Below are positions 1,163 to 29,396 of a DNA stretch of 30,136 bases, one piece after another; the stretch's first letter is position 1; the number at the start of each line of letters is the position of its first letter. Below the pieces are notes generated by a model that worked only from the letters and a program-made list of their open reading frames with translations, made no database searches and had not been told where the DNA came from. The stretch comes from a virus. The position numbers were made by a program, and so were the translations under genes. The DNA lies in the IMG/VR virus record IMGVR_UViG_3300042560_001639, positions 1-30,136 of that record; one strand, 5' to 3'.

Positions 1163-1395
1163 TGATTACTGTACTGCATGCGTTCAACGAGGCCCCAGGT
1201 GAAGGTCAAGAGAAGCACCTTGAGTATTGGTACGGCGCGGTAAAACCAGAGGATGAAGAGTACGAGGACCCAGAACGACCGGTAGTCTGCTGGTGCGGGG
1301 CGGTACAAGTACGTATCAGTAGGAATGTAGCGTGCGTATGGCACCAGGACTTCTGGCCCACAATGCATGAAGCCAAGGAGATCCCCAATGACTGA
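1162..1395 (+). CDS. Small hypothetical protein between the terminase subunits
   Basis: A 77-residue acidic protein of unknown function. I chose ATG 1162, which overlaps the small terminase stop and has AAGG at 1152-1155, over in-frame GTG 1141 and ATG 1147 farther upstream. The middle is rich in Glu/Asp (PEDEEYEDPE) and is followed by a small cysteine group (CWC, then a further C about 15 residues on) and two His, which might bind a metal but do not form a complete known finger. The gene overlaps the large terminase start by 8 nt, so the three are translated as a unit. A role in packaging is possible from context only. Confidence 0.6.
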   Translation: MITVLHAFNEAPGEGQEKHLEYWYGAVKPEDEEYEDPERPVVCWCGAVQVRISRNVACVWHQDFWPTMHEAKEIPND

Positions 1396-3181
1396 ATTAA
1401 AGCGTCAAAAGGAATTGAATCGCCTGTGGGTAGAACTGGAGTGGCGCCGTTGTGCGCAAGATGAATCCTACTTCATCAACAACTATGTATGGATCCCCTC
1501 GATGGAGGACCCACGTGGTCGTACTAAATTTGAACTTTTTGACTACCAAAACGAACTACTGTCCCTGACCAAGACCAACCGCTTCGTAATTGCCCTCAAG
1601 GCGCGTCAGATTGGCTTTACAACGCTCGGAATGGCCCATGCCCTATGGTTGGCCCTCTTCAGGCCTGGAGCGACCGTCCTGATCGTTTCTGAGACGCAGA
1701 AATCATCCAACAAGAACCTGGCCCAGGCACGCCTGGCCTACCAGTTCCTGCCCGCCTGGATGAAGGAACGGGGACCGAACGTCAAGAACGACTCCTCAAC
1801 CGGCATCTCATTCGAGTTTAATGACGGCATGGTATCAAACCTAAAGGCAAACCCCGCCACCGGCGGTGTGTTCGCAGGTGAGACCGCCACATTCGTATTG
1901 TGGGACGAGGCCGCCCTTGTCGAACCCGCCTCCCTGCAAGAGGACGTACTTAGAACACTACTACCAACGACGGACGCCGGCGGTTCGATGATGATCGTAA
2001 GTACCGCTCGTGGTGCCTACAACCGTTTTGCGAAGACCTACAGGGCCGCACAGAAGCGAGAGAGCCAGTTCGTGGCATTCTTCAAGCCCTGGATGGTATC
2101 GCCCTTCATGCGCTGTAGTGAGCACTGCGGTTGGTGCAGTGGTACCGCGGGTGAAAAGACACCATGCAAATCAAAGTACGATCTTAAACGCAGGGAGTTT
2201 GCAGACCAACCCTGGCGGTTCTTCCAAGAATACCCAGAACAAGAGGAAGAGGCATTCAGAGAATCCGGTCGCCCCCGTTTCGTAGGACTACCACCAGAGA
2301 CTGAGTACAATAATTTTACATTCCGTGGGGACCTATCATGGAAAGACGATCATTCGTTGGTTTTCACCCCAGACGAATCAGGACCACTTCATCTTGCAAC
2401 CATAGAACCCGACCCAAAGGGTTTCTATGTCATAGGCGCCGACCCATCCCAAGGTATCGGAAAAGACTACGCATCGGCACACATCATGACCATAGACGAC
2501 GACGGTAATCCAGAAATTGTCGGTTACTACCATAGCAATGTGGTACATCCTACCGAGTTTGCCTCAGCACTTGATCGGATGGGACGATACTTTTCCGGAC
2601 GTGAGTGGGCCGCTAAGTTGGCCATTGAAGATCAGGGAGGTCAGGGAGCACTTCCTATTAACGAACTACACCGGCACCTTGATTATCCAAACCCCTACAT
2701 GCACACATCGCCTGGTTCAAAGAAGTCCAGGGGCACGAGACTATTTGCATTCCCCATGACCGTAGACAGGAGACGCGCCGTTATTGATCGTCTGGCTAAA
2801 TACCTTGTAGTCAGGGACGGGCAGACCATTTTGAACGGTATACACCCAGCCCTGCGTATAGAACTTGGTCAATTCGTAGCCCAGGAAACACCAAACGGCA
2901 ACATACGATATGCCGCAGATGTGGGCTGCCATGACGACTTGGTCATGTCCTTGGCGATATCACTGTGGATTTTAATCGAAGAATATACCGAGGCCTCCCC
3001 AGAGGAGGCTATTACTGAGGAGGTTGTTTGGAAACCAAAGACGACGATCAACCTGTCCAAACTCCGAGAGGAGAGGGACAGGTATCTCGCAGAGGTAGAA
3101 GAACAGCAACGCCAGGCAATGGAATCATTTGTTATGGCGACCGAATTGATTCAGACACCAAGAGGTTACCGTGGCATATAA
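1388..3181 (+). CDS. terL: Terminase large subunit (packaging ATPase/nuclease)
   Basis: A 597-residue packaging motor that pumps DNA into the prohead through the portal using ATP and cuts the concatemer. The ATPase half shows a Walker A-like KARQIGFTT at residues 71-79 and Walker B VLWDEA at 170-175 (D173, catalytic E174). The nuclease half shows an RNase H-like acidic set: D352 in IGADPSQG, D415 in AIEDQGGQG and D516/D517 in GCHDDLVMS. I chose ATG 1388 because AAGGAG lies at 1374-1380; an in-frame upstream ATG at 1367 would absorb that SD. Unusual: four cysteines at residues 243-260 (C-x3-C-x2-C-x9-C) between the two domains, which could bind zinc. The end overlaps the portal start. Confidence 0.93.
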   Translation: MTELKRQKELNRLWVELEWRRCAQDESYFINNYVWIPSMEDPRGRTKFELFDYQNELLSLTKTNRFVIALKARQIGFTTLGMAHALWLALFRPGATVLIVSETQKSSNKNLAQARLAYQFLPAWMKERGPNVKNDSSTGISFEFNDGMVSNLKANPATGGVFAGETATFVLWDEAALVEPASLQEDVLRTLLPTTDAGGSMMIVSTARGAYNRFAKTYRAAQKRESQFVAFFKPWMVSPFMRCSEHCGWCSGTAGEKTPCKSKYDLKRREFADQPWRFFQEYPEQEEEAFRESGRPRFVGLPPETEYNNFTFRGDLSWKDDHSLVFTPDESGPLHLATIEPDPKGFYVIGADPSQGIGKDYASAHIMTIDDDGNPEIVGYYHSNVVHPTEFASALDRMGRYFSGREWAAKLAIEDQGGQGALPINELHRHLDYPNPYMHTSPGSKKSRGTRLFAFPMTVDRRRAVIDRLAKYLVVRDGQTILNGIHPALRIELGQFVAQETPNGNIRYAADVGCHDDLVMSLAISLWILIEEYTEASPEEAITEEVVWKPKTTINLSKLREERDRYLAEVEEQQRQAMESFVMATELIQTPRGYRGI

Positions 3182-5105
3182 AAGTCGATACACACTAAAA
3201 GACAAGCAGGCAGTTATCCGCGACGCTATTCGTCGTATGGAACCGGCACACGAGCACTGGCGCCTACTCGAGGCACTCTATCGTACCGGCGCACAAAGGG
3301 AACTGACACAACTGGATCTTAGTCGTATACTTCCATTCCCTATCCCAGGTTCATTCCTACGCACGGTAAACATGCTCCTGCCACACCTGACACTACTGAT
3401 TAACTCAGTAGCGGCCAGGGATCCTAAATTTGTAGTCACACCAGTTGACGGTGATCCATTGGTAGTAGAACAAAATGGTAGTATTGCTAAATCCGTGCTT
3501 GATTACTACTGGCGCCGTTCGGATGCAACCGAAGTACTGAGGGATATGACCCAGGACATGGTTGTTCTTGGAAACGGTTTTTGTAAAGTAGGTTGGTCAT
3601 ATTCTGAAACAACCGTCGATAGGGCACTTGATGATCTTGCCATCGAGACCACCGATCTAATGGTAGCCGCTAATGAGATAGCCGCGGAAACCGGCCTTGA
3701 GATGAGCGATGCCGCAATGGCAGAGATCGTAGAGTCAATCTCGCTTACCGAACAAATGGTAGAAACAGATGAACCATATGTTGAGTATGTGTCCCCATAC
3801 GACATGTTTCTCCCCGCCGATGCACGACGCATCAACCAGGCCCGTTGGGTATGTCAACGACTACGTCTACCACTTGATGAAATTAAATCAAATGATTTGT
3901 TTAATGCAAAAGCAATCAAGGATGTAAAAACAGATACTGGTTTTGCGGACAAAAATACCCTCGATCATTTTGAAATGAGAGAAGAGGGACTGCCCCCAGC
4001 ATTCTCATATGCCACAATATACGAGTTCTACGATATGCGCGACCGTACCGTATGCGTATTCCAACTGGATGCAGAAGAGGCACTATACGAAGGAGAGATA
4101 CCCTACGCCCACCGTTACCCACCGTTCGTACACATGCGCAACTTCTCAGACGGCGGTTCGACCATCTGGTCGTTCGGTGATCTCGAGAACGTAGCCGGTA
4201 TCCAATTGATGGTCAACGAGATCATGGTCGCCGAGATCAATGACCTCAAGCGTGTGGGCAACAAGTACTTCATTAACAAGAAGGTACTGACACCAGAACT
4301 TGCAAAGGCACTCGCAGAGAACCGACCAGACCAGGTAATTCCCGTGGATCTACCTGGGAATGTGTCCATGCAAGAGGTCCTGCAACCAGTGCAGCGTCTC
4401 GCTACACCGTCTGATAACTACATCATGGAAGACAAGATGCAGACCTACATGCAGCAGATTCTTGGTATCTCCGACCTGCAGATGGGCGCCCTTTCTGGTG
4501 CATCACGCGTCCCTGCTACTGCTGCTGCTGCAGTTGAGGGTGCCTCAACTACCAGGGCCCTTGATAAAATGACGAACGTCGAAAAGGCAAGTCGTGAGAT
4601 CGGTACGCGTATCCTCGGTCTGTGTCAGCAATTCATGGACGAGGGCAAGGCAATTCGTATTGCCGGACCTAACGCACCACAATGGTTGCAAATTACCTCA
4701 GAGGACATTGACGGTGAGTTTTCGATTGAAGCAGAGGGAGGTTCCACACAGGCCATTAACCCAGCCAGTCGTGCACGTCAGGGACTCGAGATGTTGCAAA
4801 TTGTAATTCCAGCACTGGCCCAACTCGGTTATAGTCCAGAACCGGCACTACGTACAGCACTATCATACATGGGATTAAACCCAGACCATATCATGGTCGC
4901 CGCACAACCGGCGGTACCCGAGGGTCAACCAATGGCACCTGAAGCACAGGCAGGAGCACAGTTACCGCCTGAACTGATGGCCATGCTTGCCCAACAGGGT
5001 GGAGCCCCTGTATCACCAGAGATGAATAGTCCGATGATGCAGGATCTGGCCGCCCTGGGCGGTCCTCCAGTACCAGCCGCAGGAATGGGGGAGGTGATGT
5101 TGTAA
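3171..5105 (+). CDS. Portal protein
   Basis: A 644-residue protein right after the large terminase, the standard place for the portal, the dodecameric ring that nucleates the capsid, serves as packaging channel and joins head to tail. It has a long helical and mixed core and ends in a flexible Pro/Met/Ala/Gln-rich tail (from about residue 570), which is usual for portals of podovirus-like phages. Length fits that group. The start is GTG 3171, inside the end of terL and preceded by AGAGGT at 3160-3165; this overlap suggests coupled translation. The stop shares bases with the next start (TAATG). Family assignment rests on size, position and general sequence character. Confidence 0.85.
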   Translation: MAYKSRYTLKDKQAVIRDAIRRMEPAHEHWRLLEALYRTGAQRELTQLDLSRILPFPIPGSFLRTVNMLLPHLTLLINSVAARDPKFVVTPVDGDPLVVEQNGSIAKSVLDYYWRRSDATEVLRDMTQDMVVLGNGFCKVGWSYSETTVDRALDDLAIETTDLMVAANEIAAETGLEMSDAAMAEIVESISLTEQMVETDEPYVEYVSPYDMFLPADARRINQARWVCQRLRLPLDEIKSNDLFNAKAIKDVKTDTGFADKNTLDHFEMREEGLPPAFSYATIYEFYDMRDRTVCVFQLDAEEALYEGEIPYAHRYPPFVHMRNFSDGGSTIWSFGDLENVAGIQLMVNEIMVAEINDLKRVGNKYFINKKVLTPELAKALAENRPDQVIPVDLPGNVSMQEVLQPVQRLATPSDNYIMEDKMQTYMQQILGISDLQMGALSGASRVPATAAAAVEGASTTRALDKMTNVEKASREIGTRILGLCQQFMDEGKAIRIAGPNAPQWLQITSEDIDGEFSIEAEGGSTQAINPASRARQGLEMLQIVIPALAQLGYSPEPALRTALSYMGLNPDHIMVAAQPAVPEGQPMAPEAQAGAQLPPELMAMLAQQGGAPVSPEMNSPMMQDLAALGGPPVPAAGMGEVML

Positions 5106-5353
5106 TGGATAAGTTTGTTAAACTTGCCGCGATTGAGCAGTTGGCCAAGCCGATGGAGGAATTCCACGGTAAGGATTCGGCTAAGTCTGAGTACAAAGAA
5201 GGTGGAAAAGACTGGGAATGCCCAGAATGCGGTACCGCTGTAATGGCAACTAAGGACATGGAAGAATGTGAATGCCCGTGTTGCGAATGCGAAATGGAAC
5301 CAGCCGAGGATACCGAAGAAGAAGACGAAGAAGAGTCCGAAGACGAGGACTAA
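5105..5353 (+). CDS. Small acidic protein with a zinc-ribbon-like cysteine cluster
   Basis: An 82-residue protein with a basic-to-neutral N-terminal half, a cysteine cluster at about residues 39-62 (CPEC, then CECPCCEC) and a C-terminal tail almost wholly Glu/Asp. Pairs of CxxC knuckles of this kind normally bind one zinc ion. The acidic tail might mimic DNA or bind a basic partner. It starts inside the portal stop codon, with GGGAGG upstream at about 5088-5093. Its place between portal and scaffold suggests a minor head or assembly role, but I do not recognise the family. Confidence 0.7.
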   Translation: MDKFVKLAAIEQLAKPMEEFHGKDSAKSEYKEGGKDWECPECGTAVMATKDMEECECPCCECEMEPAEDTEEEDEEESEDED

Positions 5354-5356
5354 GCC

Positions 5357-5980
5357 ATGAACGCAAAACGTGAAGGCTTAGAGAGAATCGTTAAAGGTGC
5401 TGCTAAAGTCGCAGACGATTGGGGATGGAGCCCTTCTCAGATGAAACCTGGTGAGATTAGCGGTACAGAGTTTAATCGCAGACTATCGGAACTAACTGGT
5501 CTTAATGATAACTTTAGCCTTAAGGAAAAACTCAGAAGGGCTGAGAGTGTAGCCAATAGTGATTTTTCTCGAGAGTCTGATAATGCTTGGAGGGAATTAA
5601 CTATTCTAAGTGATGCTGTGCAAAAACAAAGAGATAGGTCAAAGTATCCAAGTTTAAAAACAAAGTTTAAAACTATGGTTAAAGGAGGTTTTGAACCCGA
5701 TGCAATCTATGATTTAGAAAGGTTCAAGATAATGGAAGACGCTGGAATACCACGAAAGTGGACTGGAAAGATTGCAGATGCCATGGATAGGGCACCTGCT
5801 GGATTATTGCTTCACAATGGACTATATAGCACTTTTATAGCGGTGGAAAAGATTTCAGACATCATGCGCCTTATGACCAACGAACAGCGTCAAACATTCC
5901 TAAACTTACTTCCTAAGTGGACTGGTACCCTGGAAACCGCTGCATCCGCAGCCAAGAAACTGTATCGGAGGCCGTCATGA
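5357..5980 (+). CDS. Unknown protein, first of tandem paralogue pair 1
   Basis: A 207-residue protein I do not recognise. It shares with the next gene an N-terminal block around KVADDWGW (residues about 16-24) followed by a PGE(I/L) motif, a central AGIPR(K/E)WTGK motif, and a C-terminal block: MTNEQR, TFLNLLP, WTGTLETAASAAKKLYRR. Between these blocks the sequence is unrelated or strongly diverged, and the DNA there is clearly more AT-rich than the flanking portal and scaffold genes. The predicted character is all-helical and charged. Stop and next start overlap (ATGA). The place between portal and scaffold hints at a head-related role; that is inference. Confidence 0.75.
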   Translation: MNAKREGLERIVKGAAKVADDWGWSPSQMKPGEISGTEFNRRLSELTGLNDNFSLKEKLRRAESVANSDFSRESDNAWRELTILSDAVQKQRDRSKYPSLKTKFKTMVKGGFEPDAIYDLERFKIMEDAGIPRKWTGKIADAMDRAPAGLLLHNGLYSTFIAVEKISDIMRLMTNEQRQTFLNLLPKWTGTLETAASAAKKLYRRPS

Positions 5981-6516
5981 GTGCTCGTGAAGAGGCTATT
6001 GGTAGACTCGCCAAGGTCGCAGACGATTGGGGCTGGAAGGGGGGAAAGCCTGGTGAGTTGACGGGTGGGGAATATCAAAAACGGCTTGATGACCTATACC
6101 AACTATATAGCCGCAACGACGGTTTTGAGCGAGGATTTTATAATCGTTGGAGAAGGGAGGAGGATTTGCTTAGAGATAAGATGGACGCTATAATAGACGA
6201 TCAAGTGGCTAAATCTAAAAATTTTAATCTAAAGAAAATAGTATACCAAACAGGTATTGAAAAGTTTACTATGGATATGAAAGAACTGGAAAATGCTGGA
6301 ATTCCCCGCGAATGGACAGGAAAGGTATGGCCCGCCATTCAAGGCCAACTGCAAAGAAAATATGACTTTGTACCACCAATCCTTGCACAACAGGTGTCCG
6401 ATCTCATGCGCCCTATGACCAATGAGCAGCGTGAGACCTTTTTGAATCTCCTTCCCCGATGGACCGGCACCCTGGAAACGGCTGCTTCCGCAGCCAAGAA
6501 ACTATACCGCCGTTAG
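5977..6516 (+). CDS. Unknown protein, second of tandem paralogue pair 1
   Basis: A 179-residue paralogue of the preceding protein. The start is ATG 5977 overlapping the previous stop; the longer in-frame extension upstream runs through the preceding gene and has no need to be coding. It shares KVADDWGW, PGEL, AGIPREWTGK and the C-terminal MTNEQR-TFLNLLP-WTGTLETAASAAKKLYRR blocks, while the centre differs and is AT-rich with AGA and AAA codons. The C-terminal blocks are close enough to suggest fairly recent duplication or continuing exchange between the two. It ends directly before promoter-like copy B, so it closes the first transcription unit. Function unknown. Confidence 0.75.
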   Translation: MSAREEAIGRLAKVADDWGWKGGKPGELTGGEYQKRLDDLYQLYSRNDGFERGFYNRWRREEDLLRDKMDAIIDDQVAKSKNFNLKKIVYQTGIEKFTMDMKELENAGIPREWTGKVWPAIQGQLQRKYDFVPPILAQQVSDLMRPMTNEQRETFLNLLPRWTGTLETAASAAKKLYRR

Positions 6517-6517
6517 G

Positions 6518-6538
6518 GTGGGGAATTTTTTTCCCCAC
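6518..6538. repeat. Second copy of the GTGGGGAA/TTCCCCAC inverted repeat
   Basis: An exact copy of the 21-nt element at 435-455: an 8-bp stem with a five-T loop, starting two nt after a stop codon. Its right arm is the CCCCAC box of promoter-like copy B. The T-rich stretch is in the loop, not after the stem, so it is not a typical intrinsic terminator. Confidence 0.7.
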
Positions 6539-6638: not shown

Positions 6639-7649
6639 ATGGAAAACCAATCACTTACTGACATTATCCAGGAATCCCTGGCAACTGTGGAACCGGACAC
6701 CAACAAGGTACCGGTCAACCAGACAGAGGACCAGGAACCTGAAGATTCCGACGAAGTCGGCATTGATGATCTTATTGGAGATCTCGATGAGGACGAGGAG
6801 TTCGAGACCGATGAGGTAGAGGACAATGAGGAGGGTGATGAAGATCCACACCTGGCAGAGACATACCAGGTGAAGGTAGACGGTGAAGTCGTTGAGATTA
6901 GTCTCAAAGAAGCACTTGCCGGATACCAGCGCCAAGCGGACTACACCCGTAAGGCCCAGGCCCTCGCCGCGGAGCGTGAGGAGTTGATCTCAGCACAGTC
7001 AGAGTTTGCAGAAACACTGAATACGCTGGGTGTCCTGGATGAAGCATGGGATGAAAATCCCGTTCAAGTCCTGGCACACTTTACGGCCAACACCGACAAT
7101 CCGACGATGTCTTTGGCACTGTTGATTAAAGAACTGGCTACCGCCAATCTTCTTGATCAGGAGTTCTTGGAGATGTTCGGGATCACAAAAGAGGTCCGTC
7201 AAACCTGGGGCAAAGATACTGAGGTAGAACAACTGAAGCGTAAAGTCTCGAAGTCTGAGCAAGAGAAACAGACCAAGGCACAAGAGGCAGCGTATGAGGC
7301 AGAAGTCGCGCAAGCGATGAATCAATACGAACTGCAGATCGATGAGATTCTTGCAGCCGAGGGACTGAAACTTAAGCCCAGCCAGCGTGATGCGTTCCGC
7401 ACTCGTCTTGCGCAATATGCTTACGAAAATGAACTCACGAACCTCAAGGCCGCATATAAGGCATTGAAGTACGAGGAGTCTCAAAAGAAGAAGCAAGTTG
7501 CCGAGAAGACCAAGGAACGTGCCAAGCAGAAAAAGAACGCCTCGGTCGTCGGGCGTTCAGGTGCAGGTTCCGCAGGAGCCAAACCAATTTCAGACGGCTC
7601 CGATCTGACGGAGATCATCCGCCAGACGATGGGCGAATTGTCCATCTGA
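6639..7649 (+). CDS. Scaffolding (head assembly) protein
   Basis: A 336-residue protein immediately upstream of the major capsid gene, the usual position of the scaffold that guides capsid assembly and then leaves the head. The N-terminal 70 residues are strongly acidic (DEDEEFETDEVEDNEEGDED region). Then comes a YQVKVDGEVVEISLKEALAG block followed by YQRQADYTRKAQ, seen in many phage scaffold or head-assembly proteins, and a long helical, coiled-coil-like Gln/Lys/Glu-rich centre (about 190-300). The basic C-terminal segment (KTKERAKQKK) fits a capsid-binding end. ATG 6639 has an ideal GGAGG at 6631-6635. It is followed by a 68-nt gap and the capsid gene. Confidence 0.82.
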   Translation: MENQSLTDIIQESLATVEPDTNKVPVNQTEDQEPEDSDEVGIDDLIGDLDEDEEFETDEVEDNEEGDEDPHLAETYQVKVDGEVVEISLKEALAGYQRQADYTRKAQALAAEREELISAQSEFAETLNTLGVLDEAWDENPVQVLAHFTANTDNPTMSLALLIKELATANLLDQEFLEMFGITKEVRQTWGKDTEVEQLKRKVSKSEQEKQTKAQEAAYEAEVAQAMNQYELQIDEILAAEGLKLKPSQRDAFRTRLAQYAYENELTNLKAAYKALKYEESQKKKQVAEKTKERAKQKKNASVVGRSGAGSAGAKPISDGSDLTEIIRQTMGELSI

Positions 7650-7717: not shown

Positions 7718-8761
7718 ATGGCACTTGGTGACAACGCATTCACCCAACTTTTCACTTCTACCCTACAGAAGTACGAAAAGCAACTCGTGGACAACGTCCT
7801 TTTGGACCACCCTGTTCTCGAGATCTTCAAAAAGTCTGCTAAATCGCAGACCGGTCGTGGCCTGGTTATCCCGCTTCGCGCGGCAAACCTGTCCGCTACC
7901 AACTACACCGACAAGGGGATTCACGCTTCGTCCGAAGCCGCTGGTTCCGTTCCGTTCTCCGTATCTGTGTCTTCCGACATCCTCGGTTCCGCAGTGTACG
8001 AATGGGCCGACACCATCATCACCCCCTTCCGTCTGAAGCACCGCGACATTCTCCAGAACTCTGGTCCCGAGCAAATCGTGAACCTGGTCGAGGAATACGT
8101 CAAGGCCGCTGCAGCCGATCACGCTGACTTCATCGTGGCCGAACTGCACAAGAACACCTCAGCGTTCAACACCGGCGAAATCATGCCGTTGGACATGGTG
8201 TTCGGCAACGCTTCTTCGGATGCCTACTTCGACTCCTCGAACGCCCAGTGGGTTCCAGTCGGCGGGATCAACCCGAACGACTCTGGTAAGTCCTACTGGC
8301 AGTCGACCCGTCAGGAAATCGCAGACTCGTCTCAGGACATCGTCCAGGCTTTCCGCACCATCACCAACGACATCTACCGCAACTCGCGCAAGCGTCCTGA
8401 CGTAGTGATCGTGGGCTTCGATGTGTACGAAGAGTTCGAGAACTGGCTGACTGGTACCAACGGCGCCTCGGCTATCGCCCGCACGGTCTACAACGACCCG
8501 AACGGTGCAGCCCAGACCCGCTTCACCAGCATCAAGTTCGGCGACCTCGAGATCCGTCTCGATCCGGATTGTGCAGATGACCGCGCTTACTTCTTGAACA
8601 CCAACAGCCTCCGCTTCGGCTACTGCGCTGGTGAGTTCATGAAGGGCTTCCCCGCACAGGCCCTCGAAGGCACCCTCGACACCGTCGTACCGCTCGCCTC
8701 GTCCCTCGCATTCGGGACCTCCGAGCGTCGTGCGAACGGCGTCCTCATCCGCACCTACTAA
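7718..8761 (+). CDS. Major capsid protein
   Basis: A 347-residue protein after the scaffold gene, with the look of a phage coat protein: an N-terminal helical arm (about 1-45), a long beta-rich and helical core, a region with GGINPND and WQSTRQEI motifs, and a C-terminal stretch of beta and turn residues ending in GVLIRTY. An HK97-type fold is likely from context. Codon choice is much more biased towards C-ending and CGT/CGC codons than in its neighbours, as expected of the most expressed gene. ATG 7718 has a strong TTAGGAGGT upstream. It is followed by an intrinsic terminator at 8787. Confidence 0.88.
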   Translation: MALGDNAFTQLFTSTLQKYEKQLVDNVLLDHPVLEIFKKSAKSQTGRGLVIPLRAANLSATNYTDKGIHASSEAAGSVPFSVSVSSDILGSAVYEWADTIITPFRLKHRDILQNSGPEQIVNLVEEYVKAAAADHADFIVAELHKNTSAFNTGEIMPLDMVFGNASSDAYFDSSNAQWVPVGGINPNDSGKSYWQSTRQEIADSSQDIVQAFRTITNDIYRNSRKRPDVVIVGFDVYEEFENWLTGTNGASAIARTVYNDPNGAAQTRFTSIKFGDLEIRLDPDCADDRAYFLNTNSLRFGYCAGEFMKGFPAQALEGTLDTVVPLASSLAFGTSERRANGVLIRTY

Positions 8762-12051: not shown

Positions 12052-13101
12052 ATGGATTTCGGAGACATACTACGGGGCGTCGGCGGATTCGCCGCTAATG
12101 AACTTCTTGGCGTTGACGATTTTCGACGTACCTATAAGTACGCTAAACAAGGTGATTGGGGCAAGGCGTTGAAATCCGCTGGTGCCGGTGTCTTTGAACT
12201 TGGTTCAACATTTATACCTGCCGGAAGAATAGTAAAAGGTGGTAGGTTAGGAAGAACTATCTTACAATCAAGTCCATTTGGCGGACAAATTGTATCCCGA
12301 CTTCCTGGTTTTGCGGACGATGCCGGAAGGTTGACACAGTTTGGATCACGGGGACTGAATGCATTCAGGACCGCTGAAACTGGACAAAATATTTATAAAA
12401 CTTATAAAGGTTTTCAAGAAGGAAATGCTTCACCTAACCAACCCATGAGTCTTGGTACAGTGGCACCAAGGACAGCAACTACAGGGCAAACTGGTGGATA
12501 CGTTACCTCTCCCTATGGTGCGATGCCAGTTAGAAGTACCACAGGGCAGACTGCTTCTGGTACGGGTAGCACTACCGGTAGCACTGGTGGTAGTACTGCT
12601 ACTGGTGGTGGTACTGGTAGTACTACAGATAATCCCGCTACCGCACCAACGCCACCTGGTGGTCTGGCCGAGGCGGACGCCGCAGCAAAAGCAATATACG
12701 ACACCGCACTTGCAACTGCCCAAAAAAACCTTGATACGTATAATGCATCAATCGATATGGCAAGGAGAGAAGGCAGTACCGTAGATCAAGAGGCACTTCG
12801 TCAATTGGCACGAGCGACCCAGGGTGGTACGATAGACACCGCAGGCATGCTTGGGGAACTTGGATTCGGAATGTCCCCTGCTACTCTGGGTATGGCTATT
12901 GATCAATACCGTCAACGCGAGGCCCTCGGTCGTTCTAATATACTAAGTCGTATCATGGACCGTACAGCCAGACTCGGCAGGGAATCGACAGGGGCATTGA
13001 GCGCGTATGAAGCGGCATTGATTAATGCCGAGAATAATCTACTTGTAAACAGGGTAGGTAGGACAATAAGTCAACTTCAGCCATACTTAGGAGGTATATA
13101 A
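12052..13101 (+). CDS. Internal virion protein candidate (first of three)
   Basis: A 349-residue protein at the start of the internal-protein block. Residues about 15-50 (NELLGVDDFRR, KSAGAGVFELGST) are closely matched in the gene at 28698, so this is a duplicated domain. Residues about 165-205 are a Gly/Ser/Thr linker made from imperfect GGTAGYACT-type DNA repeats. The C-terminal half is Ala/Gln-rich and helical. Position after the nozzle and before two larger helical proteins matches the T7 gp14-gp16 ejection proteins, so an internal or ejected role is likely, but I see no family-specific motif. ATG 12052 has GAGGAG upstream. The stop overlaps the next start (TAATG). Confidence 0.65.
   Translation: MDFGDILRGVGGFAANELLGVDDFRRTYKYAKQGDWGKALKSAGAGVFELGSTFIPAGRIVKGGRLGRTILQSSPFGGQIVSRLPGFADDAGRLTQFGSRGLNAFRTAETGQNIYKTYKGFQEGNASPNQPMSLGTVAPRTATTGQTGGYVTSPYGAMPVRSTTGQTASGTGSTTGSTGGSTATGGGTGSTTDNPATAPTPPGGLAEADAAAKAIYDTALATAQKNLDTYNASIDMARREGSTVDQEALRQLARATQGGTIDTAGMLGELGFGMSPATLGMAIDQYRQREALGRSNILSRIMDRTARLGRESTGALSAYEAALINAENNLLVNRVGRTISQLQPYLGGI
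12545..12628 (+). repeat. Imperfect trinucleotide-like repeat coding a Gly/Ser/Thr linker
   Basis: Within the gene at 12052 the DNA is built from permutations of GGT, AGT/AGC and ACT/ACC, giving runs of GSTTGSTGGST type. Such tracts can expand or shrink by slippage and here encode a flexible linker between two folded parts. Confidence 0.6.
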
Positions 13102-24170: not shown

Positions 24171-24705
24171 ACTCAAGGGCCTACCGTGGCTGGAGATTGA
24201 ACCAGGCGACATCGGGTTCGATGGCGGCATTGGTATCAGCGGTTGGTTGATCCGCCGCTCCACAGGCGCGTACGGACACGTATTCATTTACCACGAGAAG
24301 ATCGATGACAATGCCTGGCGTACCGTAGAGGCCGGTCCGTCTGGTGTCTTGTTCCGTATCCGTACAAGACCGGCTAACAAGGTAGTTCGCCTGTGGCGCA
24401 CCAAGGTGGAACAGAATCGTATCCTGGCCGCATCCGCTGAATGCGCCGGACGTAAGTACGGTTGGGGCGAGATCGCCCGTATCTGCCTGCACCTGATTGG
24501 TATCAAGATTAATGGGTGGAAGGATAACAAGGGTCGCATGATCTGCTCGAACCATGTGGCATACAGTATCGGTCAGATGAAGAAGGGCATCAAGTACACC
24601 TTCCCGTACAAGGCCGAGCACATCTGGCCACAGAAACTGGCTGAATGGTGCGACTGGTACACCTGGACCCGTGCCCGTATTGCCGAGAAGCGGAGGGCAA
24701 AATGA
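24163..24705 (+). CDS. Permuted NlpC/P60-like (YiiX-type) amidase or peptidase
   Basis: A 180-residue protein with the order of a circularly permuted papain-like fold: a PGDIGF opening (residues 14-19), then YGHVFIYHE with likely catalytic His39, and later GRMICSNHVAYS with likely catalytic Cys128. In this class, histidine precedes cysteine in sequence, the reverse of normal NlpC/P60. Members act on peptides of the cell wall or on acylated substrates. Here it could open the wall during infection or assist lysis. Start GTG 24163 has GGAGGTGGG at 24148-24156. It overlaps both neighbours by a few nt. Other possibility: a non-enzymatic relative. Confidence 0.72.
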   Translation: MDELKGLPWLEIEPGDIGFDGGIGISGWLIRRSTGAYGHVFIYHEKIDDNAWRTVEAGPSGVLFRIRTRPANKVVRLWRTKVEQNRILAASAECAGRKYGWGEIARICLHLIGIKINGWKDNKGRMICSNHVAYSIGQMKKGIKYTFPYKAEHIWPQKLAEWCDWYTWTRARIAEKRRAK

Positions 24706-25364
24706 ACGTTGCTGATTATTTAGTCCGTTGGTCCCCTAACATCGTTGAGGCCACCGCTGACGATATCGCACGCTTCGGTCCGAATGCGGCGCAGGTTCTT
24801 GGGTTGTTAAACTATCTTCCGACGATGAGTGACGATGGGGCGGAGGCGACTTATAGGATGTGGCGGACTCCGTTGAATGCCGCGGATGATGCCGCGTGGA
24901 ATGCCGCGTGGGATGCCTCGTGGGATGCCGCGAGTGCTACCGCGAGGAATGCCGAGATGCGTGCCGCGGATGATGCCGCGTGGAATGCCGCGCGGGATGC
25001 CTCGTGGGATACCGCGAGGACTGCCGCGAAAAATGCCGCGCGAGCCGAGGTAGTCTCAGACCTCATAACCCCCGAACAATACCGGTTACTCACCAACCCA
25101 CTCAATATTGGCCGCACATATCAAGAACGGATGGGTTTGATGCTACCCGATCAGCAAGGCCCATTCATGCAGATGATTAATCAACTACGGCCCGCTTCCG
25201 CCGAGGATGTCCTTGCAATCGAACGACTTAGCGGCAACCCCAATGTGAATGCACTGCTTGAGATGCTTGGTGGTATGGCCGAAGGTCAATCATTGGCGCG
25301 TAGAATCAAGGCCGCAGAAACTATGTACCGCGCTGGTCGTGAAGGCAGGAGGGGCATAGTATGA
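24702..25364 (+). CDS. Unknown protein with AAW repeats, first of tandem pair 2
   Basis: A 220-residue protein; ATG 24702 overlaps the previous stop and has CGGAGGG at 24691-24697, so I rejected a longer in-frame start. Its N-terminal 40 residues ([27 protein letters not shown]) and C-terminal 100 ([43 protein letters not shown]) closely match the next gene. The centre, about residues 60-115, is two 28-residue Ala/Trp/Asp repeats built from AAW and AAR tetrapeptides. It has no hydrophobic anchor and looks helical. I do not know the function; similar Ala/Trp repeat tracts occur in various phage and bacterial proteins of unknown role. Confidence 0.72.
24879..25046 (+). repeat. Two tandem 84-nt repeats inside the AAW-repeat gene
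   Basis: Units 24879-24962 and 24963-25046 agree closely over their first ~56 nt (only two or three changes) and less afterwards. Each is itself made of a 12-nt-like GATGCCGCGTGG or AATGCCGCG motif. The repeat is in frame (28 residues), so copy number could vary without breaking the gene. Confidence 0.75.
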
Positions 25365-25981
25365 GCGCCGCTGACTATTTGGTTCGTTGGTCCCCTAACA
25401 TCGTTGAGGCTACTGCTGACGACATCGCACGTTTCGGTCCGAATGCGGCACAGGTTCGGGCATTGTTGAACTACCTTCCGACGGTGTCTATTCCCGCGAG
25501 TAATGCCGCGCGGTTTTTTGTAAAAGGTGACGCTGCGAAGGGCGCGTGGAATGCAGCGATGGATGCTGTATGGCGTGCCCAGTCGAATACCCCGTTTAGA
25601 GACTTCGGAAAAGCCGCGAGTAATGCCATAGGTAATGACACTGGAATGTTTGGTTATGGTGCTTTGGATGCTGAAGTAACATCACACCTCATCAGCCCAG
25701 AAATCTACCGTACCATTACGAATCCACTCAATACTGGCCGTATACTACAAGAACGCATGGGACTCATGCTACCTAACCAACAGGGTAGATTCATGCAATT
25801 GATCAGAGGCGCTACCTCACCTGAGGACATCCTTGCAATCGAACGACTTAGCGGCAATCCAAACGTAGACGCTCTGCTTGAGATGTTGGCTGGTATGGCC
25901 AAAGGTCAATCATTGGCGCGTAGAATCAAGGCCGCAGAAACCATGTACCGCGCTGGTCGCGGTGGGAGGGGAATGGCATGA
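25361..25981 (+). CDS. Unknown protein, second of tandem pair 2
   Basis: A 206-residue paralogue of the preceding protein. Its first ~37 and last ~95 residues are almost the same, with long runs of DNA that differ only at a few third positions, for example around [11 protein letters not shown] and [15 protein letters not shown]. The centre is different: a short remnant of the Ala/Trp pattern (KGAWNAAMDAVW) in a less regular, more neutral sequence. Start ATG 25361 overlaps the previous stop and has CAGGAGGGG upstream. The pair arose by duplication and then exchanged or lost the central block. Function unknown. Confidence 0.72.
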   Translation: MSAADYLVRWSPNIVEATADDIARFGPNAAQVRALLNYLPTVSIPASNAARFFVKGDAAKGAWNAAMDAVWRAQSNTPFRDFGKAASNAIGNDTGMFGYGALDAEVTSHLISPEIYRTITNPLNTGRILQERMGLMLPNQQGRFMQLIRGATSPEDILAIERLSGNPNVDALLEMLAGMAKGQSLARRIKAAETMYRAGRGGRGMA

Positions 25982-26268
25982 CCCCCGCACGTAAACAGGC
26001 ACTACTCCGTATGGCCGGCGTCTCTGGCTTTAATAAGCCGAAGCGCACCCCGTCGCACCCCACTAAGTCCCACATCGTTGTGGCCAAGGAGGGCGACAAG
26101 GTAAAGACCATCCGGTTCGGTCAGCAGGGCGTATCCGGCAGCCCCCGTAAGGCCGGTGAATCCACGTCGTATCGCAAGAGGCGTGAGTCATTCAAGGCAC
26201 GTCATGCCAAAAACATTGCGAAAGGTAAGATGTCAGCCGCCTATTGGGCTGACAGGGTGAAGTGGTAA
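25978..26268 (+). CDS. Small basic conserved phage protein
   Basis: A 96-residue, strongly basic protein (many Lys, Arg, His) with a beta-like core (SHIVVAKEGDKVKTIRFGQQ) and a C-terminal GESTSYRKRRESFKARH followed by NIAKGKMSAAYWADRVKW. I recall this arrangement from uncharacterised proteins of several phages, but I cannot assign a named family from sequence alone. Basic charge suggests nucleic acid or acidic-protein binding. ATG 25978 overlaps the previous stop and has GGGAGGGG upstream. The AT-rich gene at 26271 begins two nt after its stop. Confidence 0.68.
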   Translation: MTPARKQALLRMAGVSGFNKPKRTPSHPTKSHIVVAKEGDKVKTIRFGQQGVSGSPRKAGESTSYRKRRESFKARHAKNIAKGKMSAAYWADRVKW

Positions 26269-26270
26269 TT

Positions 26271-28085
26271 ATGGCATTAAGTGATAATCTTGCACAGCAA
26301 TTGGCTAATACACCAGTATTTAAAGAAATTGCTAAATTTAGTACGGCATCTCCAGTATCTAAAGTTCCAGGTTCGTACTTAGAAGCCATGTCTTCATCTC
26401 CATCTTATGGACGTAAAATAGACTATGAACTACTTTCAAAAGAGTTGGCTGATCCACAAAACAGTGCATTATTGAAAGTACTTGCTAAATCATCACAAGC
26501 AACAGTAGCAAGTTTACCACAAGAATCACAATTTATACAGCAAGTAGTGCCAGTATTACAGCAAATACAAACTCAAATAAAACTACTACATCCTAAGGGA
26601 AGACCATTACCATCTGGATCTTATAAATTAAATCAAAATCTTCAGCAAATTGGCGCAAGGATGGTTCGAAATGTAGGAGAAATTACTGATACAAAAACAG
26701 TAGATGATGCTGTTCTTTCTTTAGTGGCTAATGGCAAACTTAAAGAAGCCGCTGAGGCTATATACGATCAAATGTATAATCTTGCAGTTTTAACTCCATA
26801 TGAAACAATTGATATATATCGTAAGGGAGTTGTTGATGGTATTACTCCATCAGAATTTTGGGATATCATGGGTCTTAGATCATCTGAAGCGTCAAGCATG
26901 GCAAATATTCCAACGTACGGAATAACTACAGGTAATGCTATTGGATCAAAACAGGCTGGTCCATCTCTTGACGAACTAAACTCTCTTATATCTATTGCCG
27001 GTTTAACTGTTGATCAAACGACAGGAAAAATTGTACCAAATGATGCCTTACTGCAAGCACTATTTGGAAATCAAATTAATATGCGCGGTGATGTTGCTCC
27101 TGGAATTGCATCAGTATTAAATAATGCTGACTTTATTAACCTTGGAGTACCAGGTCTTGCTGCCAAAACTTGGCCATACCGAGGTGCTATCGCTGAAAAA
27201 GAAATAATGACACCATCTGGTCTTATTATTCCAAAAGAAATACAACCAGATTATTCGTATATTGCAGACTCACAAGATGCTGCAAGTAGATTGGGAGCAA
27301 CTTCAGCAACAACACCAAGATCGTATGCAGCAGCAAAAGATGCAAAACCAGAGCGAGTAGCCGCTCAGGCTGCCAGATCAGCACTTAACTCTACAATTGC
27401 ACAATTGCCAGGTAGATATTTATCTGAGGCTTTGGGTCTTCCCGCAAATGCCGTTATGCAAATTAACTGGCCTGTGGGACGTATAGTCCGTGGAAGTAAG
27501 TTCTCTTCTGCGCCTATGACATACTTAAATACAGACTTAGGTAGAAGTAACTTTTTTAATACTATATCTATGCTATCTCCTGAGGCTCAAGAATTAGCAA
27601 AACAACCAGAGGCTGTTGCACGTCTTGCTGATAGAAATTCTAAAGTTGCACCTAACCTAAGAAAATTTAGATCACAAGGCGACTATGGACTTGCCAGTAA
27701 AGATGTATCTCAAGTTGCCTCGGCAGAAGAAAAAAGAATGGCTCAGGATATTGTAAATAATCCTATTCTACAAGAGCAGTATTCTCTTGATGCTGCTATG
27801 CAAGGTAAAGTTGTAGCACGTACAGATGTTGCTAAAAATCTTATTACACCAGCAGCACGAAATTACCCAGGATATGTTGAATTTAATCGTGATATTTTAA
27901 ATAAAGTTCACCCAAATGCGGCGTTAAAAGCACTACAGTTTATTGCCGGTACCGCAGGAACGCTTGGTGGAGCAAGGCTACTATCCAGTCTTAGTGAGGA
28001 TGGACAGGGGACAGATCCAGAATATGAGGCCCTGAGCCGGATGTTGTCCCCACTGCCGGCTTATAATGGAGGATTACGACGATGA
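26271..28085 (+). CDS. Large AT-rich unknown protein
   Basis: A 604-residue protein of unknown function. I chose ATG 26271, two nt after the previous stop; an in-frame GTG at 26262 is also possible. The SD is weak (AGGGTGA at 26253-26259). Most of the gene is markedly more AT-rich than all neighbours, with AAA, AGA and TTA codons frequent; composition returns to the window norm in about the last 140 nt. The protein looks helical and Gln/Ala/Ser/Leu-rich, with a hydrophobic stretch near the end (LQFIAGTAGTLGGARLL). This points to an acquired or fast-evolving gene. Its last ~13 codons overlap promoter-like copy H. Confidence 0.7.
   Translation: MALSDNLAQQLANTPVFKEIAKFSTASPVSKVPGSYLEAMSSSPSYGRKIDYELLSKELADPQNSALLKVLAKSSQATVASLPQESQFIQQVVPVLQQIQTQIKLLHPKGRPLPSGSYKLNQNLQQIGARMVRNVGEITDTKTVDDAVLSLVANGKLKEAAEAIYDQMYNLAVLTPYETIDIYRKGVVDGITPSEFWDIMGLRSSEASSMANIPTYGITTGNAIGSKQAGPSLDELNSLISIAGLTVDQTTGKIVPNDALLQALFGNQINMRGDVAPGIASVLNNADFINLGVPGLAAKTWPYRGAIAEKEIMTPSGLIIPKEIQPDYSYIADSQDAASRLGATSATTPRSYAAAKDAKPERVAAQAARSALNSTIAQLPGRYLSEALGLPANAVMQINWPVGRIVRGSKFSSAPMTYLNTDLGRSNFFNTISMLSPEAQELAKQPEAVARLADRNSKVAPNLRKFRSQGDYGLASKDVSQVASAEEKRMAQDIVNNPILQEQYSLDAAMQGKVVARTDVAKNLITPAARNYPGYVEFNRDILNKVHPNAALKALQFIAGTAGTLGGARLLSSLSEDGQGTDPEYEALSRMLSPLPAYNGGLRR
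28047..28071 (+). promoter_or_regulatory. Promoter-like module, copy H, inside a coding sequence
   Basis: T, CCCCAC (28048-28053), TGCC, GGCT (28058-28061), TATAAT (28062-28067), GGAG (28068-28071). The module encodes residues near the C-terminus of the AT-rich protein (SPLPAYNGG), so it is read as protein and probably as promoter. GGAGG is the SD of the gene starting at 28082. Confidence 0.65.
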
Positions 28086-28697: not shown

Positions 28698-29396
28698 ATG
28701 GAACTCGGTGATGTACTAAAAGGTATAGGATCAATTCCAATTGCTATTGGGAAAGAGATTGTAACTAACCCTGTTAGTTTTGTGAGCAATGAGTTGCTTG
28801 GTCTTGATGACTTTAGACGGGCGCTAAAGTACGGAAGTCAGGGTGAGTTTCTTAAAATGCTTAAATCTCTTGGTGCTGGAACCTTTGAGTTGGGGTCAAC
28901 ATTAATACCCTCAGGTGCTTTGTTGAGGGGTACTAAGGTAGCCCCATTTGCAATGGACGCTGCAAGGTTAGGGGTTGCTGAGGGTACAATGATACCTGAG
29001 ATGGTATCAAAAATTCTACCTAACAGTAGGAAAGTATTTGGCCGTGAACTACCTGCCGTGTCTACAAGAATATTGTCAAGAATACCAGGGGCAACTGAAG
29101 TAGTAGGTTCTAATATCGCTACACGTGCGCCCCTATTCGGACTAACCAATGCCGGTCGTCGTGGATTACAGGGATTCCGTTTGGGAGAACTTGGTCAATG
29201 GGTTGACGCAGGTAATGCTATATCGGCAGGTATGGGAGCACCGTCTTTAAATATCGGATCTGCTTCTCAATTGCGCAATGAACAAGCACAGCAGATGTTG
29301 TTGGAAAGGATGCGTCTGGAAATAGCAAGGCAGGCCGAGGCCGATGCGCTCTTACGTGTACTGGCACAGGGTGGGGTAGACAGTTATGCCCTTTAA
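28698..29396 (+). CDS. Paralogue of the first internal virion protein
   Basis: A 232-residue protein. Residues about 30-75 (NELLGLDDFRR, LKSLGAGTFELGSTLIPSG) match the N-terminal domain of the gene at 12052 at most positions, and a weaker match follows (GRRGLQGFRLGELGQ against SRGLNAFRTAETGQ). The extension before the shared domain and the C-terminal part (MLLERMRLEIARQAEADALL helix) differ, and there is no Gly/Ser/Thr linker. It is therefore a duplicated domain carried in the accessory block. ATG 28698 has GAGG about nine nt upstream. Its end overlaps the next gene by 11 nt. It is probably a virion component or an assembly modulator. Confidence 0.68.
   Translation: MELGDVLKGIGSIPIAIGKEIVTNPVSFVSNELLGLDDFRRALKYGSQGEFLKMLKSLGAGTFELGSTLIPSGALLRGTKVAPFAMDAARLGVAEGTMIPEMVSKILPNSRKVFGRELPAVSTRILSRIPGATEVVGSNIATRAPLFGLTNAGRRGLQGFRLGELGQWVDAGNAISAGMGAPSLNIGSASQLRNEQAQQMLLERMRLEIARQAEADALLRVLAQGGVDSYAL

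Follow-up and report, generated by a model that had tools for sequence, protein, structure and literature searches.

In a group of uncultured tailed phages, a small gene family situated between the portal and scaffold genes encodes a modular protein whose core is swapped between phages through recombination via the conserved blocks. This had been suggested in the original prediction for a tandem pair of these genes and is supported here, since cores of two types are younger than both the ends of the genes and the phage backbone and two of the genes are mosaic. As read from the sequences, the gene is modular, with a recombining core, fixed ends, variable copy number and one slot among the head genes.

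The pair lies in a virus record of 30,136 bases from IMG/VR, which was analysed over its whole length and is referred to below as the window. In 5' to 3' order the window carries a small DNA-packaging gene, a terminase-like gene, the portal gene, an acidic 82-aa ORF, the two paralogues A and B, the scaffold gene and the major head protein gene:

1367-3181, terminase-like gene, named from gene order and similarity to annotated records
3171-5105, portal gene, P22-like portal (Pfam E 3.2e-21)
5105-5353, acidic 82-aa protein with CxxC pairs, between portal and A
5357-5980, + strand, paralogue A (core type A), 207 aa, no cysteine
5977-6516, + strand, paralogue B (core type B), 179 aa, its ATG start overlapping the stop of A
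6518-6538, + strand, terminator-like hairpin directly 3' of B
6639-7649, scaffold gene, PHROG scaffolding family (E 3.6e-15)
7718-8761, major head protein gene, downstream of the scaffold gene

Paralogue A follows the portal gene immediately except for the one small acidic ORF (5105-5353), and small acidic ORFs resembling it are found in the equivalent place of relatives (given below by L numbers), including L011, which carries no cassette gene. The stop of A and the start of B overlap as ATGA; the start of B was taken as the ATG at 5977, and a GTG at 5917 is the longer in-frame start in the ORF list. The hairpin after B was kept in this interval across the compared relatives, again including the cassette-less L011 (alignment of 8 loci). 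Rfam and tRNA scans of the window gave no hits. The first residues of the scaffold protein are SLTDIIQESLA and its last are SDLTEIIRQTMGEL, one short helix being nearly repeated at the two termini, and similar near-repeats are present in relatives.

The original prediction described A and B as an adjacent pair with a common N block, an AGIPR-WTGK block and a near-identical C-terminus, and this description was confirmed, its coordinates and motifs being correct. The two genes were divided as follows, the A N block being delimited by the block split and shuffle test:

5357-5464, + strand, A, N block, residues 1-36 (KVADDWGW...KPGEISG)
5408-5424, + strand, A, 17-base run GTCGCAGACGATTGGGG, identical in B, where the mosaic junctions of L001 copy 3 and L002 lie
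5465-5731, + strand, A, variable middle 1, residues 37-125, AT-rich
5732-5773, + strand, A, second conserved block MEDAGIPRKWTGKI, residues 126-139, travelling with the core
5774-5851, + strand, A, variable middle 2, residues 140-165
5852-5977, + strand, A, C block, residues 166-207, helices and a basic end (KKLYRR)
5977-6066, + strand, B, N block, residues 1-30
6016-6032, + strand, B, 17-base run identical to that of A (GTCGCAGACGATTGGGG)
6067-6285, + strand, B, variable middle 1, residues 31-103, AT-rich
6286-6327, + strand, B, second conserved block LENAGIPREWTGKV, residues 104-117
6328-6393, + strand, B, variable middle 2, residues 118-139
6394-6513, + strand, B, C block, residues 140-179

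BLASTP aligned A and B at 44% identity (210 columns, 36 of them gap positions; E 5e-43), and the signal in this end-to-end match is from the conserved blocks. The proteins were split at the blocks and compared by global alignment with 500 shuffles per pair, in 15 pairs drawn from six of the eight core types described below (types G and H were compared by identity only). For A versus B the conserved blocks scored far above the shuffles (z = 11.0 for the N block, 10.9 for the AGIPR block and 25.4 for the C block), the long middle gave z = 3.0 (p = 0.010, uncorrected over the 15 pairs; local z = 1.8, p = 0.062) and the short second middle z = -0.3. Among all pairs the AGIPR and C blocks were far above chance in 15/15 and the N block in 13/15 (the exceptions being L001 copy 1 with L014 and with L025), and the long middles had a global p above 0.05 in 13/15, the exceptions, again uncorrected, being A-B (p = 0.010) and L001 copy 1-L025 (p = 0.022). 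No short second middle reached a global p below 0.1 in the 15 pairs. A profile-profile comparison of three A middles with two B middles gave a probability of 0.5% (E 0.12), and the A and B middles, described as different in the original prediction, are thus not clearly above chance by either method.

These results bear on the possibility of a plain old tandem duplication, in which the centres would have diverged past recognition with no exchange, and of which well-aligned centres had been named as the mark. Given that the long middles were near chance and the profile probability was 0.5%, such an alignment was therefore not obtained. The three blocks common to all members do make them clear homologues, type B is old and there is the weak residual similarity of the A and B long middles, all of which a duplication would account for; the codon counts and mosaic genes given below speak against it and overall we regard it as highly improbable.

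The long middles of A and B have a GC content of 0.36 and 0.35, the N and C blocks 0.47-0.56 and the window 0.49; outside A/B and the ORF at 26262-28085, the lowest GC of any 240-base stretch of the window is 0.40, so none reaches 0.36. The AT-richness noted for the middles holds for types A, B and C and is not general, types D, E and F being not or only slightly AT-rich. The ORF at 26262-28085, of 607 aa, has a GC content of 0.39 and a third-position GC of 0.19 in this record of GC 0.49; it had no PHROG match and was perhaps recently acquired.

Relatives were found by scanning IMG/VR with A, B, alignments and the portal, and ten further records proved informative on the slot. All contigs come from metagenome assembly, and the independent L044 and L045 agree with each other, a check that applies to these two records alone; L045, a near-duplicate of L044 (6,621/6,624 bases), was excluded from all counts, and L010 and L012, which end inside or right after the portal gene, stand outside the copy count. 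The family comprised 13 proteins in nine records including the window, with one to three members in each of the eight further records. Between portal and scaffold there are two copies in the window, three in L001 and one each in L002, L003, L014, L042 and L044; L025 has at least one and L047 at least two, which are lower bounds because both records end before the scaffold gene. L011 has the portal, scaffold and head protein genes and no cassette copy. The cores that the same conserved blocks enclose in the 13 proteins are of eight types (A-H): type A is found in three phages (window, L001 and L002; core identity 78-82%), type B in four (window, L001, L044 and L047; 45-88%) and types C to H once each, with a core identity between different types of 26-39%, shared blocks included. 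The comparison of the locus in related phages thus bore out the original prediction, giving eight different middles and copy numbers of 0 to 3 in the portal-scaffold slot.

The portals form two clades, window/L001/L002/L003/L014 and L025/L042/L044/L047, with L011 outside, and type B is found in both. The C block roughly tracks these clades, ending in KKLYRR in the first and having LLPEW or LLPDW and an earlier stop in the second; L001 copies 1 and 3 are exceptions and depart strongly from this pattern. Stand-alone 61-aa ORFs that are little more than a C block overlap the stop of the cassette gene in L042 (6115-6300) and L044 (5528-5713). No further C block turned up in a search of 17 loci (3,701 frames), and the idea that it is a general tag of the other virion proteins of these phages was rejected on this result. 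In L042 the C-terminal part of the cassette gene (5363-6115) has an MRPMTNDQRE motif followed by another QLTNDQREAFLALLPEW block, which looks like a duplication of the C block.

Judged by its portal, the closest annotated phage was MW202803 (26% identity), in which the portal is followed by a hypothetical protein and then the head protein, with nothing annotated in that gap. Searches by tblastn with A and B against annotated phages, and with A against plasmids, found no relative. Two scans of prokaryote genome contigs likewise found none, and these scans therefore provide no prophage or host link.

Other small genes of the window and its relatives were observed in comparable arrangements. A second tandem pair of paralogues in the window (24645-25364 and 25361-25981; 63% identity) has conserved ends and an Ala/Trp/Asp-rich centre of variable length, and relatives of this pair occur at the equivalent place in the records behind L002 and L003. 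Another small gene family, with the motif MALLSGTA, occupies the portal-scaffold slot before the cassette gene in L002 (5438-6004) and L003 (5468-5983), and the L003 record (G003) has a MALLSGTA paralogue at 795-1298 on the - strand, about 20 kb away and close to where the window has its second pair; it seems that the same families are traded between these two slots. Two genes far apart in the window, 12052-13101 and 28698-29396, resemble each other in their N-terminal region (37% over 169 columns), and the 12052-13101 product had no Pfam or PHROG match.

The age of the cores was compared with that of the ends and the backbone by counting unchanged codons at identical residues with degenerate codons only. 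For A window-L001, A window-L002 and B window-L001, respectively, 83/92, 84/96 and 84/95 core codons were unchanged, compared with 18/33, 20/34 and 9/18 in the C blocks of the same pairs (Fisher's test, p = 3e-5, 8e-4 and 5e-4). The portal had 213/478 and 196/468 unchanged codons and the scaffold 119/208 and 113/223, so that the cores stood at 88-90%, the C blocks at 50-59%, the portal at 42-45%, the scaffold at 51-57% and the head protein at 72-74%. The difference between core and portal was pronounced (p < 1e-15), and even the head protein still differed from the core (p = 1.9e-4). Synonymous divergence (NG86) gave the same picture where it could be calculated, dS being undefined by saturation in many block comparisons: in the three pairs dS was 0.10, 0.19 and 0.13 for middle 1 and 1.34, 1.34 and 1.28 for the C block of the same genes, 2.71 for the window-L001 portal (undefined by saturation for window-L002), 1.39-1.75 for the scaffold (1.39 for window-L001) and a fairly low 0.58 for the window-L001 head protein. 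Along the genes, identity was 97-100% over the middles and dropped on both sides. The low dS of the cores could in part be an effect of composition; the exact runs of 60 bases argue for recent exchange. Judging from these comparisons, the A and B cores have recently been exchanged between phages with far more diverged backbones. For the window and L044, the B cores (62% identity) are about as diverged as the portals (64%), and descent therefore suffices there and explains part of the pattern.

Two genes are mosaic. L001 copy 3 has an exact run of 53 bases in common with copy 2 up to GATTGGGG, followed by a type B body, and the L002 gene has a 5' end like that of B in the window (94% in the N extension), followed by a type A body. 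The junctions of both lie in the shared GACGATTGGGG (DDWGW) codons, and junctions were also found before or inside the C block. The AGIPR-WTGK block travels with the core. Between genes of different types, the N extensions were 69% identical within the same genome (5 pairs) and 43% identical between genomes (permutation p = 0.006), reaching 95% for L001 copies 2 and 3 and 83% for the L047 copies. Cores of different types were 32% identical both within and between genomes (p = 0.50), those of the same type being 65% identical (9 pairs), and no within-genome homogenisation was detected for the C block (p = 0.55). We take this combination as core exchange between phages together with homogenisation of the N ends within a phage. 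Since the A and B cores are young, the N ends are common within a genome and two genes are mosaic, the cores are exchanged by recombination through the conserved blocks. A search of one related genome for an annealing recombinase found only an exonuclease and an unnamed neighbour of 282 aa. A plain old duplication does not fit cores that are younger than their own ends and backbone in three comparisons, nor mosaic genes, nor ends common to different types within genomes, and it was rejected on the shuffle test, the profile comparison, the codon counts and the within-genome sharing of N ends.

The C block of A versus B had a dN of 0.11 and a dS of 2.56 and, on this measure, is under strong constraint. 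The A core of window-L001 had 21 amino-acid to 9 synonymous changes, compared with 137 to 265 in the portal (p = 1.4e-4), and the excess of residue change over the portal was also seen in A window-L002 (p = 0.004) and B (p = 0.02). The synonymous sites of the portal are saturated and the comparison is therefore conservative; residue changes are relatively frequent in the cores.

No known family was assigned to the cassette proteins. Scans of the members against Pfam, PHROGs, NCBIfam and PADLOC gave no meaningful E-value, and the weak matches in all four (best 0.0022 to about 0.3) were rejected because they were short or partial. Three weak phage matches were also rejected, H2 with E 1 and on the strand opposite to the annotated gene, H3 and H4 with E 7 and 9. 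A sequence search of solved structures gave a best E of 0.37. AlphaFold2 models of A (pLDDT 75.6, pTM 0.69) and B (pLDDT 73, pTM 0.62) were all or nearly all helical and of moderate confidence, with the C block among the better parts. Foldseek searches with both models gave no match at E < 0.001, an absence that does not show a new fold, and the best VIA-align Z was 4.0. In the literature searches made, no paper on this cassette family was found.

Our hypothesis for the function of A and B, to which we would give about even odds, is that they are accessory proteins, probably packaged in the head, which would dock by their fixed ends and act on the host by their fast-changing core, much as the internal proteins of phage T4 do. 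A swapped core between fixed ends is a pattern expected of a delivered anti-host or anti-defence protein. The T4 internal proteins have in common little beyond a targeting peptide, and absent homology therefore decides nothing on membership of a T4-type group. To our knowledge, the neighbourhood of portal and scaffold is not that of the T4 internal protein genes. The cassette family gave no sequence or family match. The parallel, the best-studied one, would be a likeness in working, not membership. In the cassette family, a dispensable and variable set of genes between relatives was found, copy numbers ranging from 0 to 3 and cores being of eight types within a single slot. According to two papers, the T4 internal proteins IPI, IPII and IPIII are likewise small phage proteins in a head context, several per phage, with gain and loss between close relatives; they are described as mostly basic, non-essential and injected, encoded at two loci, and having apparently non-homologous bodies behind a shared packaging signal, the bodies matching different host defences by blocking different Type IV restriction enzymes (PMC12373910, PMC9026906). 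The arrangement of the signals is not the same: T4 has a short N-terminal targeting peptide cut by a protease, whereas the cassette family keeps both ends and a central block, and its N extensions are genome-specific, unlike the one shared peptide of T4.

Two other systems combine a conserved part with an exchangeable one. MuF genes, as described in one paper, also lie just downstream of the portal gene in the packaging module and have this division (PMC5576092). MuF toxins, however, vary at the C-terminus, and in the cassette family the exchanged part is central and the C-terminus most conserved. Membership was rejected because no MuF domain (PF04233 / PF06152) was found in A, B and six alignment members (hmmscan against Pfam, E up to 1) and because the variable part is central. 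Polymorphic toxins, according to another paper, diversify by recombination with C-terminal cassettes (PMC3482391). The cassette family differs from these in having a conserved C-terminus, no toxin domain match and no immunity gene seen, and membership was rejected given that the C block is the most conserved part.

We propose the following mechanism. The ends would dock the protein to the assembling head, the docked protein would be packaged and delivered with the DNA, and the core would meet a host target that varies, a defence system being the simplest candidate. During mixed infections a phage would acquire new cores when homologous recombination takes place through the conserved ends, and with tandem copies it could hold two or three different cores simultaneously. 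Docking to the head is suggested because the genes adjoin portal and scaffold and because the C block is strongly constrained and follows the phage lineage; that C blocks from one genome are no more alike than those from different genomes (p = 0.55, as above) and that L001 copies 1 and 3 fall off the clade pattern count against a strict docking role.

The same position between portal and scaffold, the constrained and lineage-tracking C block and the small separate C-block ORFs that follow the gene immediately in L042 and L044 would also suit a structural or assembly protein of the head, a partner of portal, scaffold or vertex, having a loop-like variable middle and neither delivery nor a host target. 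This seems to us rather unlikely, given that L011 has portal, scaffold and head protein and no copy where others have two or three, and that the cores have long shared stretches within a type, which is not free drift, and are exchanged as units. Accessory genes are common in late operons, and the variable copy number, the fast core and the lack of a structural family match could also be those of a non-virion accessory protein expressed late in the infected cell, for example in phage exclusion or counter-defence, with ends that serve as fold or recombination handles and not as packaging signals. We consider this unlikely, since the same head-gene slot was used in 9/9 records and the C block follows the lineage of the phage, a pattern that fits a partner belonging to the head proteins of that phage.

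Returning to the packaged accessory protein, a broader form of this reading, which we put forward tentatively and with some doubt, is an undescribed family of head-targeted cargo in phages of the short-tailed type, in which both ends together would serve for docking and packaging and the core would be an interchangeable counter-defence warhead, one to three being carried and reloaded by recombination through the fixed ends. If the cargo reading is true, the ORFs of L042 and L044 that are little more than a C block would represent docking modules that carry nothing. If packaging is true, the slot would amount to a naturally assembled collection of phage effectors for delivery. Any new core found in it could then be taken as a possible inhibitor of a host defence, and the two ends could be used as an existing delivery signal from beyond the T4 group. 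Packaged or not, this small gene lets the age of its core be separated cleanly from that of its ends, so that in uncultured phages the exchange of cores by way of conserved ends becomes measurable.
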